Position numbers and translations under genes: made by a program. Positions 7,413 through 14,793 of a stretch of DNA of 35,359 nucleotides are shown piece by piece (the first letter of the stretch is position 1; each line of letters opens with the position of its first letter). The stretch lies in assembly GCA_029210545.1 (NCBI GenBank), contig JARGFV010000006.1, positions 4,213-39,571 of the forward strand. Reading direction: 5' to 3'. The stretch comes from a bacterium (GTDB taxonomy: Bacteria; BMS3Abin14). The notes below the pieces were generated by a model, which saw only the letters and a list, made by a program, of their open reading frames with translations, searched no databases and had not been told where the DNA came from.

Positions 7413-7414
7413 TG

Positions 7415-7654
7415 TCCCCTTCGGGGATGGTGGAAACCCCTCGCCTTCAGGCGAAGCAGGTTTTCCTGAAGTCCCCGAAGGGGACGATGGTTTGCCATCC
7501 CCCGACTGAAGTCGGGGGGATTCCGGCGATGGATTGTAATTTGAAGTACCGCCGTCTGAAGACGGCGGTATCAAGTGGCGCTTCAAGTCGAATTCATTCA
7601 ACGCGCCACTTCAAGCCCTCGGCTTACAGCCGAGGGTCTAGCTGACTCGAGACC
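7415..7654. repeat. Field of at least seven tandem short palindromes with different stems
   Basis: No gene is present. The stretch is a chain of short hairpins: 7415-7427, 7441-7454 (TCGCCTTCAGGCGA), 7471-7485 (GTCCCCGAAGGGGAC), 7499-7518 (CCCCCGACTGAAGTCGGGGG), 7548-7569 (10-bp stem, CTGAAG centre), 7573-7611 (8-bp stem AAGTGGCG), 7616-7636 (CCCTCGGCT stem) and a weaker one at 7635-7654. Stems differ completely but are perfectly self-complementary, while several centres are CTGAAG or TTCA. A lone relative is at 26282-26297. It lies between convergent genes and could terminate both. Confidence 0.85.
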
Positions 7655-7767: not shown

Positions 7768-7926
7768 TCAGCTTATTTCTTCCACCTCTTCCCCTTCCTC
7801 CTCGTCACCCTTGAGGGGCGACACCGGCGTCTTCCTCCTTTCGAGAAGCGGCCCAAGCCAGGCAAACCGCTCGGACTTTCTTCGCTCCTCGTAGGACTCG
7901 ACCTGACTCTTCTTTTTGTCGCTCAT
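7768..7926 (-). CDS. Small highly charged hypothetical protein (52 residues)
   Basis: A 52-residue protein, short but supported by a good ribosome site (AAGGAGC, 6-7 nt before the ATG). It is basic in the middle (EERRKSERFAWLGPLLERRK) and very acidic at the C terminus (GDEEEGEEVEEIS). It has no signal peptide, membrane segment or Cys. I do not recognise a family. It lies downstream of the membrane protein gene at 8027-8785 on the same strand, with about 100 bp of heptamer array between them, and may be cotranscribed. Its charge pattern resembles small nucleic-acid or ribosome-associated proteins, but this is not evidence of function. Confidence 0.55.
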   Translation of the reverse strand: MSDKKKSQVESYEERRKSERFAWLGPLLERRKTPVSPLKGDEEEGEEVEEIS

Positions 7927-8026: not shown

Positions 8027-8785
8027 TTATTCCTCCAGATCCAGAAGCGTATAGTGGTCTTTTCCGGCTCCCTTGAGCTCTCCCTCCACGTGGATATCCA
8101 CGGCAGTGTCGTGCACCCAGGCGACCTGAACGATCCTGAGGGTTTCCGGGTCGTAATCGGCAAGGAGGTTTCTCAGGCTCCTGATGTTGAGGCCCTGGCC
8201 CACCTGTTCGCGGGGGCAGGTGAGGAGAAGCTCACCGGTTCTGGCGTGGTGGATCCTGAAGAGGTTGCTCATTTTTTTCGCTCCTGGCGCCTGGCCGGTC
8301 TGAACAGTGGCAGCCCGGGACTGCGGGAGTGCTGGTGAGGCCGGGACAGACGCGGTCTTTCCAGTCGGTGTAAAGGGGGCTGAAACCGGTTGGCCGGATC
8401 GGGAAGAGGAGCTTAAACGGTGGGCAAACCAGTACCCCGGGGATGTGGCCAGGTGATAGCTTGTGTAGAGGGCAGCGACGATGAGGAGACTGGATGCCGC
8501 GGCTCCGATAAAGGGGAGGGAGGCTATGGAACCGGCTTCGACAGCGCCCCGTACCGCGGCGAACCCGTCGATTAGCAGGGCGGCCAGGGCGGCCCCCATT
8601 ACGGCGAAAGCGTAGGTGACATTTTCAAAAGCCCACGCTGTCAGCAGCAGGGACTGCACTCCCAGGACGAGTAGCAGCCATGGCGTGCTCAGGTCAGCCA
8701 TGAATACGTTCCGGAAGACAAGGTGCATGACCAGGGCGAAAACGATGGCAGGCGCCACGACCTGTACGGTGCTTTCCTTCCTCAA
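8027..8785 (-). CDS. Membrane protein with four N-terminal helices and an unrecognised C-terminal module
   Basis: A 252-residue protein. Four predicted membrane helices span about 9-26, 35-50, 57-75 and 90-110. A Ser/Pro/Thr-rich linker (125-170) follows, then a compact domain at 173-238: FRIHHARTGELLLTC, LNIRSLRNLLADYDPETL, RIVQVAWVHDTAVDIHVEGE. The domain and the second membrane helix (TPWLLLVLGVQSLLL) match the protein at 10451-11827, which has two copies of the domain, so these are paralogues. The start is a TTG at 8785 with GGGAG upstream (about 8 nt). No family is recognised. It precedes, on the same strand, the 52-residue gene; upstream lie the HEPN-like and VapBC genes. Helix placement is from hydrophobicity only. 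Confidence 0.75.
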   Translation of the reverse strand: MRKESTVQVVAPAIVFALVMHLVFRNVFMADLSTPWLLLVLGVQSLLLTAWAFENVTYAFAVMGAALAALLIDGFAAVRGAVEAGSIASLPFIGAAASSLLIVAALYTSYHLATSPGYWFAHRLSSSSRSGQPVSAPFTPTGKTASVPASPALPQSRAATVQTGQAPGAKKMSNLFRIHHARTGELLLTCPREQVGQGLNIRSLRNLLADYDPETLRIVQVAWVHDTAVDIHVEGELKGAGKDHYTLLDLEE

Positions 8786-8925
8786 TAGTGATCTCCCGCA
8801 TGCAATGGGCCTGGTACGGTCGGCAAGGTAATGAGTGGCAACAAAAGGGATCGGCCGAGTGGGGGCCCTGCCAGGTTTTTATTTATTCTAGCATGGAAGG
8901 TCCCACGAGTGAATCGGAAGGGGAG

Positions 8926-9432
8926 CTATTCGACGGCGGCTATCCGGTCCTTCAGGCTGTGATCGGAAAGGACCGGCCTGGCTTTTCCGGAGAGCTTTTC
9001 CAGTGGATTGCCGAGGGGGTGGTCCCTTAAAAGGTTCACAAAGCGCAGGATGTTCCACGCGCTTCGCTGCAGGCTTTCTTCGCCGATGCGGCTCGTTCCG
9101 TGGATGATCCTTCTGCGAAGCTGAACCGAGCTGACGATGTCCGGCCACAGTTTGCCGGCTGCCATGGGAAGGGACTCCTCCCACTCTTCCCGGCTTATGA
9201 CCCTGAAAAGGTAGATAAATCTCGGGTTGTCGATGCGTTCCTCGATCAGGGCGTCCCGGGCCTGCTGCACTGTCCACCCCTCACGCTTGGAGGCCAGGAT
9301 GAGCATCCTCCTGCGTACCGCCTCCCAGAGGGTCCACGATGCCGTGAAGGCGGTAAGACCATCGGGTGGATCTGAGTTGAGGGCTTTTTCAGCCCTCCTT
9401 TTCAATTCCAGGAGGTACTTGGGGTTGGGCAA
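8926..9432 (-). CDS. Helical HEPN-like protein of unknown function
   Basis: A 168-residue, mostly helical protein. RRRIIHG at 106-112 contains R-x4-H, the catalytic motif of HEPN-domain ribonucleases, and is followed by a long helix (EESLQRSAWNILRFVNLLR), as in HEPN folds. The N-terminal helix bundle (LTAFTASWTLWEAVRRRMLILASKREG) also fits. HEPN proteins often act in toxin-antitoxin and defence systems, and this one lies next to a VapBC pair, about 165 bp from vapC. The start is taken as TTG at 9432, with AAGGAG 11 nt upstream, a long spacing. The HEPN call rests on one short motif and predicted helicity, so it is tentative; the reading frame itself is convincing. No second subunit (for example MNT) is adjacent. 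Confidence 0.65.
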   Translation of the reverse strand: MPNPKYLLELKRRAEKALNSDPPDGLTAFTASWTLWEAVRRRMLILASKREGWTVQQARDALIEERIDNPRFIYLFRVISREEWEESLPMAAGKLWPDIVSSVQLRRRIIHGTSRIGEESLQRSAWNILRFVNLLRDHPLGNPLEKLSGKARPVLSDHSLKDRIAAVE

Positions 9433-9475
9433 GGCTCAATTTTCTCCTTTCCGGCAGGTCGAAAATTGAGATTCG

Positions 9476-9578
9476 AAAGGTTAAGGTGGAATGTGGAAAG
9501 GAGGATCAATCAACGGTGTGAACGACCAGCCTGTATTTTAGTGCTTTCACCTTCTACTTTCCACTTGTTACTTTCCAC
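9476..9578. repeat. Inverted pair of 7-bp-period arrays (AAGGTGG / TTTCCAC)
   Basis: Left units AAAGGTT, AAGGTGG, AATGTGG, AAAGGAG (9476-9503). Right units CTTTCAC, CTTCTAC, TTTCCAC, TTGTTAC, TTTCCAC (9544-9578). The same words occur in the array after ligA. The pair flanks 40 bp of unique sequence between the HEPN-like gene and vapC. Confidence 0.82.
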
Positions 9579-9596
9579 TCCTTCGTTGAGCTTTGC

Positions 9597-10019
9597 TCAG
9601 CGAAGGTCCCCCACCCACTTGACGTGGACCGAGAAAGGCGTCCCCCGGACAATATCGTACAAAGTCCGGCTTGTTGTCACGAGGCGGCAGTCGCTCTGCA
9701 CGGCCAGGGCCAGGGATAGGCCGTCGCCCAATGGGCGATCAAGTGACGTGGCGATCCGCAAGGCCGCCTCCATGAGCGGGCTGGCAGGGACGAAACACAG
9801 TGGCGCTGCCTGGAGGGCTTCCAGGGTGGTCAGACTCTCTTCCTGGGTCAACTCCCCGAGCCGTGTTTTTGCAGTGAGCAGCCTGGCTGCCTCGGTGAGC
9901 AGGGTGTCGGGGGCAAGAAGCTCGTTCCCCCCGTCCAGGAGGCGGGCTGCAGCGTTCGAATGATCTTCGGGTACGAACCATTTGACTACGAGGGACGGCT
10001 CGACGACGAACCGTGCCAT
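9597..10019 (-). CDS. vapC: VapC-like PIN-domain protein with degenerate active site
   Basis: A 140-residue PIN-domain protein of the type II toxin class, normally a Mg2+-dependent RNase inhibited by its VapB partner. The fold signature is complete: FVVEPSLVVKWFVPE at the start, LLTEAARLL (Glu43), GDGLSLALAV (Asp99) and LVTTSRTLY. Two of the four metal-site acids are changed. The first, usually Asp in VDAS-type starts, is Glu7, and the last (TADR or TNDR) is TTSR with Ser117. Activity may therefore be reduced or lost. The ATG directly follows the TAG of the antitoxin gene (10020-10022), so translation is probably coupled. Product family is certain; function as a live toxin is not. Confidence 0.88.
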   Translation of the reverse strand: MARFVVEPSLVVKWFVPEDHSNAAARLLDGGNELLAPDTLLTEAARLLTAKTRLGELTQEESLTTLEALQAAPLCFVPASPLMEAALRIATSLDRPLGDGLSLALAVQSDCRLVTTSRTLYDIVRGTPFSVHVKWVGDLR

Positions 10020-10244
10020 CTAGAGGGCTCCTTCTGCAAGTTCGCCGCTGTCAGTATGTTCACGGCCGCCAAGCATCCGTCTTATCCTGGCGGCAAGAAT
10101 GGCCGCATCCAGGGATTCGGCCTGGGCCGCGCTTTCAATGATGTTTTTGAGCTCCGACTGCATGGATCGGCCGTTGCGGTGGGCCCTGGTCTTCAGCTGT
10201 TTGATGGTCTCCGGGGAAAGGTCCCGGATAAGGATGTTGGGCAT
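10020..10244 (-). CDS. vapB: VapB/FitA-type ribbon-helix-helix antitoxin
   Basis: A 74-residue antitoxin. MPNILIRDLSPETIKQLKTRAHRNGRSMQSEL is the FitA/VapB-type ribbon-helix-helix DNA-binding segment: one beta strand, then two helices. The tail (DAAILAARIRRMLGGREHTDSGEL) is the usual toxin-binding region. The ATG at 10244 is chosen because AAGGAGG lies 7-8 nt upstream; the frame is open further upstream but enters the operator. It forms an operon with vapC with no intergenic base. The repressor presumably binds the palindrome at 10262-10287. Confidence 0.9.
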   Translation of the reverse strand: MPNILIRDLSPETIKQLKTRAHRNGRSMQSELKNIIESAAQAESLDAAILAARIRRMLGGREHTDSGELAEGAL

Positions 10245-10261
10245 AGCGAAATCCTCCTTAA

Positions 10262-10287
10262 AGTGATAACATAATGATATCATCACT
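10262..10287. promoter_or_regulatory. Palindromic operator of the vapBC pair
   Basis: AGTGAT (10262-10267) and ATCACT (10282-10287) are inverted, with a TGATATCA palindrome between them, about 18 bp upstream of the vapB start. Size and place match RHH-antitoxin autoregulatory sites. Confidence 0.6.
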
Positions 10288-10302
10288 CTAGGTTGATTTC
10301 CA

Positions 10303-10344
10303 GTGCACAGTTCACGGTGCACAGTTCACGGTTTACTGTTCACT
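10303..10344. repeat. Six-unit 7-bp-period array (GTGCACA/GTTCACG)
   Basis: GTGCACA, GTTCACG, GTGCACA, GTTCACG, GTTTACT, GTTCACT run without interruption upstream of the vapBC operator. The same word family recurs at 14744-14764. Confidence 0.88.
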
Positions 10345-10450
10345 GAAAACCATTAACCGTATACTTCTCTCCTCCTTTACCTCCCCCCCCAATCCCGTTA
10401 AAATGTCCTGTCATATAAACCGTCCACGTGTGTCCCTTCCCGGAGGTGCC

Positions 10451-11827
10451 ATGAACACCGGACCATCCCAACCCATGTCCGCCGGCAAACCGGTCCTGAT
10501 TGCCTCTGTCGCCTACACCCTGGTTGCCTATGCCACTTTCAGCGGGCTGTGGGGGATCGTCATCGCCCCCCGCCTCCTGCTCGTGGTTGTCGGCGTCCAG
10601 GCGGCCATGCTGCTTCTGGGAGGCAGCAGGGTGCTGACCGGCCTCGGCGTCGCCTTCCTTGCCGCCCTCCTGGCCGTAGCCGCCTTGTTCGCTGCTGTTT
10701 TCCTTGTTTTCCCGGCCTCCGTACTTTACCGGGCTGCCGCTTTGGTGGGCGGTGTGTCAACCATCCTTTTCATCCTTTTTTCCTTTGCAACCGCCTCCAG
10801 GGACCCGATCGCCGTTGTTGAGGAACCGTCGGACTCACCTGGATCAAAAAACCCGCACGTCCTCTTCGAAGATGAGGAGACTGGTGGCCAGCCGGGATCG
10901 CCGGCCAAGGGCGATGTGCGAAGTGCGAAGGATGGAGAAGAGACTGCTGATGAAGAGGAGCAGGGTGAATCGCTTCTTGAAATGACGGGGGAATCTGTAA
11001 CGGAATACGAGTTCGACGATCTTTCGGACGAAACACTGGAAATATCTCTGGCCGGGGGGAGCGAGGAGCTTTTCCCGGAGGAGGAAGATAAAACGGATCA
11101 GGACGAGACGTCCATTCCTGAGGACTGGGTTGACGCAGCCGCAAAGGAAATAACGTTGATGGACTCGCAAAAAGTCTCTTCGAGCCATTTTGCGGGATTA
11201 TCGTCGTTGACCGGGACAGAAGGGGAAACCGGGGAGGCGATACCGGGACCCCTTGTCCCTGATCCCCGGGCGGCCGGCGGCGGGAAACTCCCCCCTCCCG
11301 CCTATCCGAAAGAATACAGGATGCGAACCCATTACCGCGTCCTGGATTCGGGGAGCGGTGAACTGTACGGTGTCTATTACGGGGACGAGGGGTACGCCAG
11401 CCTGGATCTGGTGACCCTCGGCGCCCTGCTGGGAGAGAGGATGGGGTCGGCCGAGCTGGCCATCGTCAAGCTGGACTGGTCCAATTTCGATGAGGTCGAA
11501 GTCCACGTGCACAAACCCGGGATCGCCGGGTCGGAAAATGTTCTGCCTCTGCCGGCCGCCGAAGCGGATGAAGACGGCATCAGGGCACCCCGTTTCGTCA
11601 TCTACGACCGCAGAACTATCCAGCCCATGAAAGAGTACATACCGGAGGGGGACCGCCCCCGCATCGACCGGCTGACCCTTTACAAGCTGTTTCCGGAGTT
11701 CGATTTCAAGACCTTCGAGATCGAATCGATCCGCTGGCACGAAGATGAGGTCCGGATCTTTATCCGTGGGGAGAAAAAACGAAGTTCAAAGTCCAAAGTC
11801 CCGAGTCCACAGGGGACGGACGATTGA
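10451..11827 (+). CDS. Membrane protein with two copies of an unrecognised C-terminal module
   Basis: A 458-residue protein. Four hydrophobic helices lie in residues 14-113; APRLLLVVVGVQAAMLLL resembles the second helix of the 252-residue protein at 8027-8785. A long acidic, low-complexity linker (120-285) leads to two related domains: 294-356 (HYRVLDSGSGELYGV ... LVTLGALLG ... AIVKLDWSNFDEVEVHVHKPG) and 379-442 (RFVIYDRRTI ... LTLYKLFPEFDFKTF ... ESIRWHEDEVRIFIRGE). The shared pattern is Y/F-x-I/V-x-D, a helix, then I-x-x-hydrophobic-x-W-x4-V-x-I/V-x-I/V. Two pieces of intergenic repeat lie inside the gene: LMDSQKV (236-242) and the last ten residues. GGAGGTG lies 6 nt before the ATG at 10451; the open frame from 10403 is not used. 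It is cotranscribed with the next gene (22-bp gap). Family unknown. Confidence 0.8.
   Translation: MNTGPSQPMSAGKPVLIASVAYTLVAYATFSGLWGIVIAPRLLLVVVGVQAAMLLLGGSRVLTGLGVAFLAALLAVAALFAAVFLVFPASVLYRAAALVGGVSTILFILFSFATASRDPIAVVEEPSDSPGSKNPHVLFEDEETGGQPGSPAKGDVRSAKDGEETADEEEQGESLLEMTGESVTEYEFDDLSDETLEISLAGGSEELFPEEEDKTDQDETSIPEDWVDAAAKEITLMDSQKVSSSHFAGLSSLTGTEGETGEAIPGPLVPDPRAAGGGKLPPPAYPKEYRMRTHYRVLDSGSGELYGVYYGDEGYASLDLVTLGALLGERMGSAELAIVKLDWSNFDEVEVHVHKPGIAGSENVLPLPAAEADEDGIRAPRFVIYDRRTIQPMKEYIPEGDRPRIDRLTLYKLFPEFDFKTFEIESIRWHEDEVRIFIRGEKKRSSKSKVPSPQGTDD
11159..11178. repeat. Half copy of the GCAAAAAGTCC repeat inside a coding sequence
   Basis: GATGGACTCGCAAAAAGTC in the linker of the 458-residue membrane protein matches the left half of the intergenic hairpin at 14688-14706 (GATGGACCCGCAAAAAGTT) with two changes. 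It is read as MDSQKV. Confidence 0.7.
11781..11808. repeat. Four-unit 7-bp-period array forming a protein C terminus
   Basis: GAAGTTC, AAAGTCC, AAAGTCC, CGAGTCC sit at the 3' end of the preceding coding sequence and encode most of its final basic residues (RSSKSKVPSP). The same AAAGTCC word family makes the intergenic array at 13314-13348. Confidence 0.78.
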
Positions 11828-11849
11828 AAATTAACCCGAGATCTTAACT

Positions 11850-12950
11850 ATGATGAAACCGTTAACCTCATCCATTCTTACCGCGCGTACCGTCACCATA
11901 TGTCTCACGGTTCTCCTGATCCTGTCCCTTATCCCGGTTTCCAGTGGTACCTTCCTGGAGGCGGCCCTCGGGAAGGCCGGGCTGGATCAGGTAAATGCCG
12001 CCGCCCGTGGCTATCTCCAGGACCAGCGGGACCAGGCCATCAAAGGGTTCCTGGTCCTTTCCGCCCTCAAGGTAGGGCTCGCCGTCCTGCGCAGCTCCGA
12101 GATCGGGCTTGTCCTGAATGTCCGTATCGGAGATCTTGCGATCGCCGTTTACGATTACGTCAACTTTGCCTGGAAGGTCATGCTGGCTGCGGTTGCCTGG
12201 TTCTACCTGGCCGATTTCTTTCTGGACCTTTCCGCGAAAGTGGACACCTGGTTCCTCTGGGCAGCCCTGATCTGCTTTTCAGCGGCCGGATGGCTAGCTC
12301 TTCTCAGTGTCGAAAAAAGGGTACTGAAAAACCTGCTTCAACGCACCGGAGTAGTGGCTGCCGTCTTTTCCCTGATCCTGTACGTCGCGCTTCCCCTGGG
12401 TTTTATAGGAGCGGGCTGGGTATCGGCCAACGTTACCGGGACCGCCATCGTTGATGCCAACCGTTTCCTGGAGGACCTCCAGGACGACATGCCCTCACTT
12501 CAGGAGAGCGGGAAAAAAAGCCAGACCTCTGCCGGCGATATCCGCACTCCGTCGGTGACGGTTCCTTTCCCCTATGACGGAACCGACCCTTCAAGGGTTG
12601 TTGTGGAGGATGAGGTCCGGAAGGGGGGCTTTGGCGGTTTGGTTGAAGGCATCGTATACGGCCAGAAACTGAGGAAGTTTAAAAACTACCTCGAGTCGAG
12701 GTCCAGTGAACTGGCCTCGGTGATCCTCCGCCAGACGGCTGCCTACCTTTTTAATATTGTCCTTCTGCCCCTGCTCATGGTCCTCTCCCTGTACATGGGC
12801 GGGAAATATGTCGTCTCTTTTGCTCCTGCCCGGCCTGTCTCTCTTGCCCCGGGCACCGGGTCGGCGATCCCGGATCTGACCGAAGCGATCAAACGGCTGG
12901 AAAGAAGAATGGGGAAAACGAGCTTGGATAGAGAAAACCCTGAACCGTGA
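11850..12950 (+). CDS. Polytopic membrane protein of unknown function
   Basis: A 366-residue protein. Hydrophobic segments lie near 14-32 (TVTICLTVLLILSLIPV), 64-80, 104-125 (FAWKVMLAAVAWFYLADFF), 133-152, 167-193 and 297-320 (LFNIVLLPLLMVLSLYMGG). A soluble region of about 100 residues (194-295) separates the last helix from the rest. A short coiled-coil-like tail (LTEAIKRLERRMGK) ends the protein. It starts 22 bp after the preceding gene, so the two are probably an operon. The Shine-Dalgarno is weak; ATG at 11850 or 11853 are both possible. I recognise no family. Its partnership with the modular membrane protein upstream is inferred from spacing only. Confidence 0.75.
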   Translation: MMKPLTSSILTARTVTICLTVLLILSLIPVSSGTFLEAALGKAGLDQVNAAARGYLQDQRDQAIKGFLVLSALKVGLAVLRSSEIGLVLNVRIGDLAIAVYDYVNFAWKVMLAAVAWFYLADFFLDLSAKVDTWFLWAALICFSAAGWLALLSVEKRVLKNLLQRTGVVAAVFSLILYVALPLGFIGAGWVSANVTGTAIVDANRFLEDLQDDMPSLQESGKKSQTSAGDIRTPSVTVPFPYDGTDPSRVVVEDEVRKGGFGGLVEGIVYGQKLRKFKNYLESRSSELASVILRQTAAYLFNIVLLPLLMVLSLYMGGKYVVSFAPARPVSLAPGTGSAIPDLTEAIKRLERRMGKTSLDRENPEP

Positions 12951-14743: not shown

Positions 14744-14764
14744 GTTCACGGTTCACAGTCCACC
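14744..14764. repeat. Three-unit 7-bp-period array (GTTCACG)
   Basis: GTTCACG, GTTCACA, GTCCACC, the same words as the array at 10303-10344. Confidence 0.75.
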
Positions 14765-14793
14765 CTGAACTGGAAGCGCGCTCGCGCCGCGCA

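Follow-up and report, generated by a model that had tools for sequence, protein, structure and literature searches.

The described systems closest to the locus considered here are the vapBC operons, the HEPN ribonucleases and the beta-grasp domains. Operons of the vapBC type are usually controlled by their own antitoxin, and small beta-grasp domains are usually binding domains. The toxicity of VapC proteins depends on the acidic residues that correspond to D6, E43 and D99 of Haemophilus VapC1, and the fourth acid of the active site is usually D (PMC4229260). The histidine of the Rx4-6H motif is essential in those HEPN proteins in which it has been tested, and some families lack it (PMC3710099).

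The locus lies in a window of 35,359 nucleotides, which is the whole stretch of DNA that was analysed (contig JARGFV010000006.1), and has the following features:

7768..7926, minus strand: gene of a 52-aa protein
8027..8785, minus strand: P1, a 252-aa membrane protein with four hydrophobic segments and one module (start TTG)
8075..8275, minus strand: module of P1 (residues 171-237)
8926..9432, minus strand: HEPN-like all-helical protein (R106-x4-H111)
9597..10019, minus strand: VapC, a PIN-domain protein with an altered active site (Pfam PIN 5e-7)
10020..10244, minus strand: VapB, a FitA-like ribbon-helix-helix antitoxin of 74 aa (Pfam RHH 3e-13)
10264..10282, no strand: palindrome TGATATCATTATGTTATCA before vapB (in relatives TGCTATC-N5-GATAGCA)
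10451..11827, plus strand: P2, a 458-aa membrane protein with four hydrophobic segments (1-116), an acidic linker (118-288) and two modules
11318..11521, plus strand: module copy 1 of P2 (residues 290-357)
11579..11779, plus strand: module copy 2 of P2 (residues 377-443), its best conserved part, predicted beta-beta-alpha-beta-beta
11850..12950, plus strand: P3, a 366-aa polytopic membrane protein, on the same strand as P2 and 22 bp downstream

The original prediction for this DNA had placed a HEPN-like gene and a toxin-antitoxin pair between P1 and P2 and a third membrane protein after P2, and all of these are present, the pair being a PIN-domain VapC with a ribbon-helix-helix VapB and the third membrane protein being P3; the 52-aa gene was overlooked in that reading. 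The start of vapB is most likely the ATG at 10244, not 10322. Clustered short G+C-rich hairpins, several of them of the form stem-TGAAG-stem, occupy positions 7414-7640 between fdhD and the 52-aa gene and have no match in Rfam, and the vapB/P2 intergenic region carries tandem GTTCACGGTGCACA-like units at 10303-10345, of which a weaker copy is found at 14744-14765.

Codon usage indicates that the P1 and P2 reading frames are coding (in-frame log-odds of +0.15 and +0.22, respectively, with both shifted same-strand frames negative in each case). The hydrophobic segments are located at residues 6-24, 35-53, 60-78 and 87-105 in P1 and at residues 15-33, 36-54, 69-87 and 95-113 in P2, whose linker contains 45 D/E residues against 10 K/R. 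Homology between the two membrane parts is detectable over only about 38 residues, in TM1-TM2 (hhalign E 7.7e-5, against 0.45 for the unrelated P3 used as a control), and TM3-TM4 correspond by position only. When P1 was aligned jointly with membrane parts and modules, TM4 came out misplaced, and this alignment was left out of folding.

That P1 and P2 are paralogues, as was originally proposed, is borne out by sequence comparison of the modules. Direct BLASTP of the two proteins gives an E-value of 4e-4 in the module region, and an HMM built from P2-type modules alone (eight modules, four genomes), with P1 left out of the profile, matches P1 as the sole further ORF among those of the loci tested (E 9e-8; 2.3e-10 when the profile is compared with the P1 module by hhalign). 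The two copies within P2 match each other with an E-value of 3e-4. Profile comparison agrees with a module of about 65 residues present once in P1 and twice in P2, with limits that differ by a few residues from those first given (173-238 in P1; 294-356 and 379-442 in P2), and four columns are invariant in all nine modules (L34, I48, W53 and V58). Conservation of P2 against its three homologues (located in L009, L010 and L011) is highest in the modules, with identities of 76, 79 and 52% in module 2 and 65, 58 and 38% in module 1, followed by 46, 45 and 24% in the membrane part, and is lowest in the acidic linker (29, 27 and 18%) and the tail.

The module had been described as unrecognizable, and on sequence grounds it is a family absent from the libraries searched (Pfam, NCBIfam, PADLOC, PHROGs and PDB sequences): P1 and P2 match no profile in the first four, the nine single modules match nothing in Pfam, MucBP included, and every match of the module profile to PDB sequences lies above E 0.2. 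An AlphaFold model computed from the nine-row module alignment is confident (mean pLDDT 91, with a range of 88-91 over five models) and consists of beta strands at 5-10 and 15-20, a helix at 31-37 and beta strands at 47-54 and 57-63. This predicted order of elements along the chain is that of the beta-grasp fold. Foldseek finds no significant match among solved structures; the best is weak (E 0.18, probability 0.85, TM 0.51 normalised to the query), and the upper ranks include 7kpj, 3i57 and 6waj. Of these, 7kpj is an immunoglobulin-binding protein and 3i57 a MUB repeat; ubiquitin-like domains accompany them, and all are of the beta-grasp class. The module may thus be called “beta-grasp-like” in the sense of a predicted resemblance of fold, which falls short of demonstrated membership, and the structure prediction and profile searches that had been suggested for it have produced no clear match to a known domain.

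The distribution of the family was examined in a phylum sample of 12 genomes of one family, in which G000 is the genome of the window. P2 is present in four of the 12 (G000-G003), each of another genus, and was not found in G008, G011 and others of the sample, several of which are incomplete; P1 was not found in any searched genome besides that of the window. A scan of genome_contigs for P2 relatives returned two records only, bin676 (corresponding to G002) and bin47 (G001), and none was found in viral contigs or plasmids. Among about 370 genomes outside the phylum the module gave three chance-level matches only (E 0.003-0.008). Two of them, with E-values of 0.003-0.007, come from G148 and G285, are limited to module positions 33-65 and fall in proteins resembling Mrr-type nucleases, and the third, in G050, lies in an apparent glycoside hydrolase ORF; all were rejected. 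The best reading is that P2 and P1 form a new, narrowly distributed family, restricted to one small lineage. Homologues of P3 occur in G003, where P3 adjoins P2, and in G008, where P2 was not found. A single weak and distant P3 relative lies outside the phylum (L099:1264-2142, profile E 1.6e-5), so that P3, by contrast with P2, probably belongs to a wider family.

Judged by their residues, both supposed effectors are atypical, with eroded catalytic signatures. The VapC of the window departs from the D, E, D, D pattern of PIN acids, having E for the first D and S at the fourth position, and these changes are widespread among its homologues: the fourth acid is absent in 8 of 8, E stands at the first position in 7 of 8, N or H takes the place of the second acid in two, and the third is V in one (in this comparison only part of the PAE0151 row was relied on). 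By contrast, G000:C90, a VapC paralogue at another place in this genome, retains all four acids. The homologues do keep an acid located five residues beyond the fourth position, and this, together with the displaced acid of Haemophilus VapC1, makes a variant VapC site possible. In the HEPN-like protein R106 is invariant, but the position of H111 reads H/Y/H/H/N/N in the six homologues, so that the histidine of the conserved Rx4-6H is replaced in three of them. The protein has no match to Pfam HEPN; its structural model (pLDDT 84) has TM-scores of 0.34-0.45 to HEPN toxin chains, and the PDB entry matched with the highest probability (0.41; TM to target 0.43) is 7ae6, the HEPN toxin, with a Foldseek E-value above 1. 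A HEPN identity is no more than likely. Matches to Pfam HTH_32 in three of the six homologues were too weak to be used (best E 0.007).

The genes vapB, vapC and that of the HEPN-like protein occur together, as a “cassette”, in G000, G001, G002, G003, G010 and G011, and they lie near ligA-fdhD in G000, G001, G003 and G011; G004 and G009 have vapBC without the HEPN-like gene, only the C-terminal part of vapC being matched in G009. The 52-aa gene is likely a fourth member of the cassette. In G003 and G011 it comes immediately after the HEPN-like gene, and P1, which separates the two in the window, is consequently placed inside that gene series. The encoded protein is charged, has AAGGAG upstream of its gene and is 53-55% identical in two relatives (L010:8676-8825, plus strand; L058:2112-2261, minus strand). 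The palindrome TGCTATC-N5-GATAGCA, or a similar one, is found just upstream of vapB in G000-G003 and G010, including G001 and G010 where P2 is not adjacent, and is absent upstream of vapB in G004 and G009. Since vapBC operons are commonly autoregulated, the palindrome at 10264-10282 is read as a probable VapB(C) operator. Similar palindromes are also found in G000, G002, G004 and G009 (L114:6353, L115:6006, L116:1754 and L117:2655), where they coincide with the stop codon of a gene for an MFS transporter and precede a gene for an SDR dehydrogenase; a VapB-like regulator possibly has a second target there.

P2 is divergent from vapB in three genera (G000, G002 and G003), that is, in three of the four genomes that have P2, and G002 retains the HEPN-vapC-vapB-P2 block even though ligA and fdhD are absent from the 12.5 kb examined. 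In G001, which is a single contig, the cassette (C1:450.6-451.9 kb) and P2 (2,697.7-2,699.2 kb) are about 2.2 Mb apart, and no palindrome of the vapB type occurs within 13 kb around P2. No P2 was found in G010 or G011, both of which have the cassette (vapB is cut short by the contig end in G011, where adjacency therefore cannot be judged). The tree of the cassette proteins joins G001 with G010 (support 0.99) and separates them from G000, G002 and G003; because the three adjacent cases fall together, the adjacency is counted as one event, an inherited state. The original prediction was to be judged by whether the module matched a known domain and whether homologues occurred near one another or near HEPN/VapBC genes, and the outcome is mixed: a clear match to a known domain is absent, and homologues lie near VapBC in three of four genomes.

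The reading that is tentatively preferred, at slightly short of an even chance and by analogy with known domains, is that P2 and P1 serve as adaptors tethered to the membrane and make up a new narrow family, and that the cassette, with its altered signatures, is separate from them. Both would be inner-membrane proteins with cytoplasmic N and C termini, as hydropathy and a slight positive-inside bias suggest, and their modules would be binding domains by likeness to small beta-grasp domains. P2 would tether a conserved partner at the membrane, with contacts mostly at module 2, since this is its best conserved part, and P1 would be a copy of the P2 type placed inside the cassette gene series in this lineage. 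The vapB-vapC-HEPN-like operon, with or without the 52-aa gene, would be a unit of its own with its own promoter palindrome, and given the eroded signatures its products are as likely to form an autoregulated complex that binds DNA or protein as to be toxic. We infer these parts with support that decreases from the independence of P2 and P1 from the cassette, through the cytoplasmic side, to the adaptor role, which draws on the analogy of fold.

A nearly comparable, if somewhat lower, probability attaches to P2 and the cassette being neutral neighbours, which is compatible with the adaptor role of P2 and differs on the functional link only: P2 would have come to lie beside the cassette once and P1 would have arisen by duplication. 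A single relocation explains all of the adjacencies, P1 occurs in one genome only, and P3 follows P2 in G000 and G003 yet occurs without P2 in G008; against this, the vapB/P2 adjacency has survived the divergence of P2 to 45% identity. Chance co-location in an accessory island, one of the two interpretations first offered, is not an exact fit either, since the cassette is inherited throughout the family, in many cases near ligA-fdhD, and vapB/P2 is kept in three genera, albeit as a single event; the locus shows no composition shift and P2 has no viral or plasmid relatives, while P2 and P1 are patchily distributed. The other interpretation, a membrane sensor coupled to RNA-targeting effectors, would have P2 and P1 sense a signal and act on VapBC and the HEPN-like protein through sequestration or release, or through shared control via the vapB/P2 intergenic region that both have in common. 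The divergent gene order in three genera, the G002 block kept with different flanks in the stretch examined, and the position of P1 between two genes that adjoin in G003 and G011 speak for such coupling, but it is made improbable by the distant P2 of G001, around which the palindrome is missing, by cassettes without detected P2 in G010 and G011, by the single origin of the adjacency on the cassette tree, and by the loss of signature residues in both supposed ribonucleases. That P2 and the cassette are linked in function nevertheless keeps a modest probability, because the adjacency is inherited and because of where P1 lies. It is very doubtful that the link takes the form of a former VapBC-HEPN toxin operon which has lost its nuclease function and is kept as an autoregulated complex that acts, with the membrane-tethered beta-grasp-like module proteins, as a membrane-linked regulator.

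The module represents a sequence family whose fold is confidently predicted and which is limited to one little-known phylum. Should the altered operon turn out to be non-toxic, it would exemplify toxin-antitoxin genes that are inherited across genera for regulation and not for growth arrest.

Like VapBC systems that combine a FitA-like ribbon-helix-helix protein with a PIN protein, the cassette has the antitoxin gene followed by the PIN gene in one operon, with a palindrome before vapB; it differs in the lost fourth acid, in the E that replaces the first D, and in the HEPN-like gene that follows, joined in some genomes by the 52-aa gene. The HEPN-like protein is all-helical, as are the HEPN ribonucleases (the HEPN/MNT toxin HepT), and its invariant R stands at x4 spacing from the position of H, but it differs from HEPN/MNT in its lack of a Pfam HEPN match, in the replacement of H in half of the homologues, and in that no MNT partner was recognised next to its gene. 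The module has the (predicted) beta-beta-alpha-beta-beta topology of beta-grasp domains such as the MucBP/MUB repeats, ubiquitin-like domains and GB1, and is likewise of about 65 residues and used as a repeat, although sequence similarity is absent and the Foldseek E-values lie above 0.1. The module is joined to a four-helix membrane part, and not to a conjugation system or an anchor in the cell wall.
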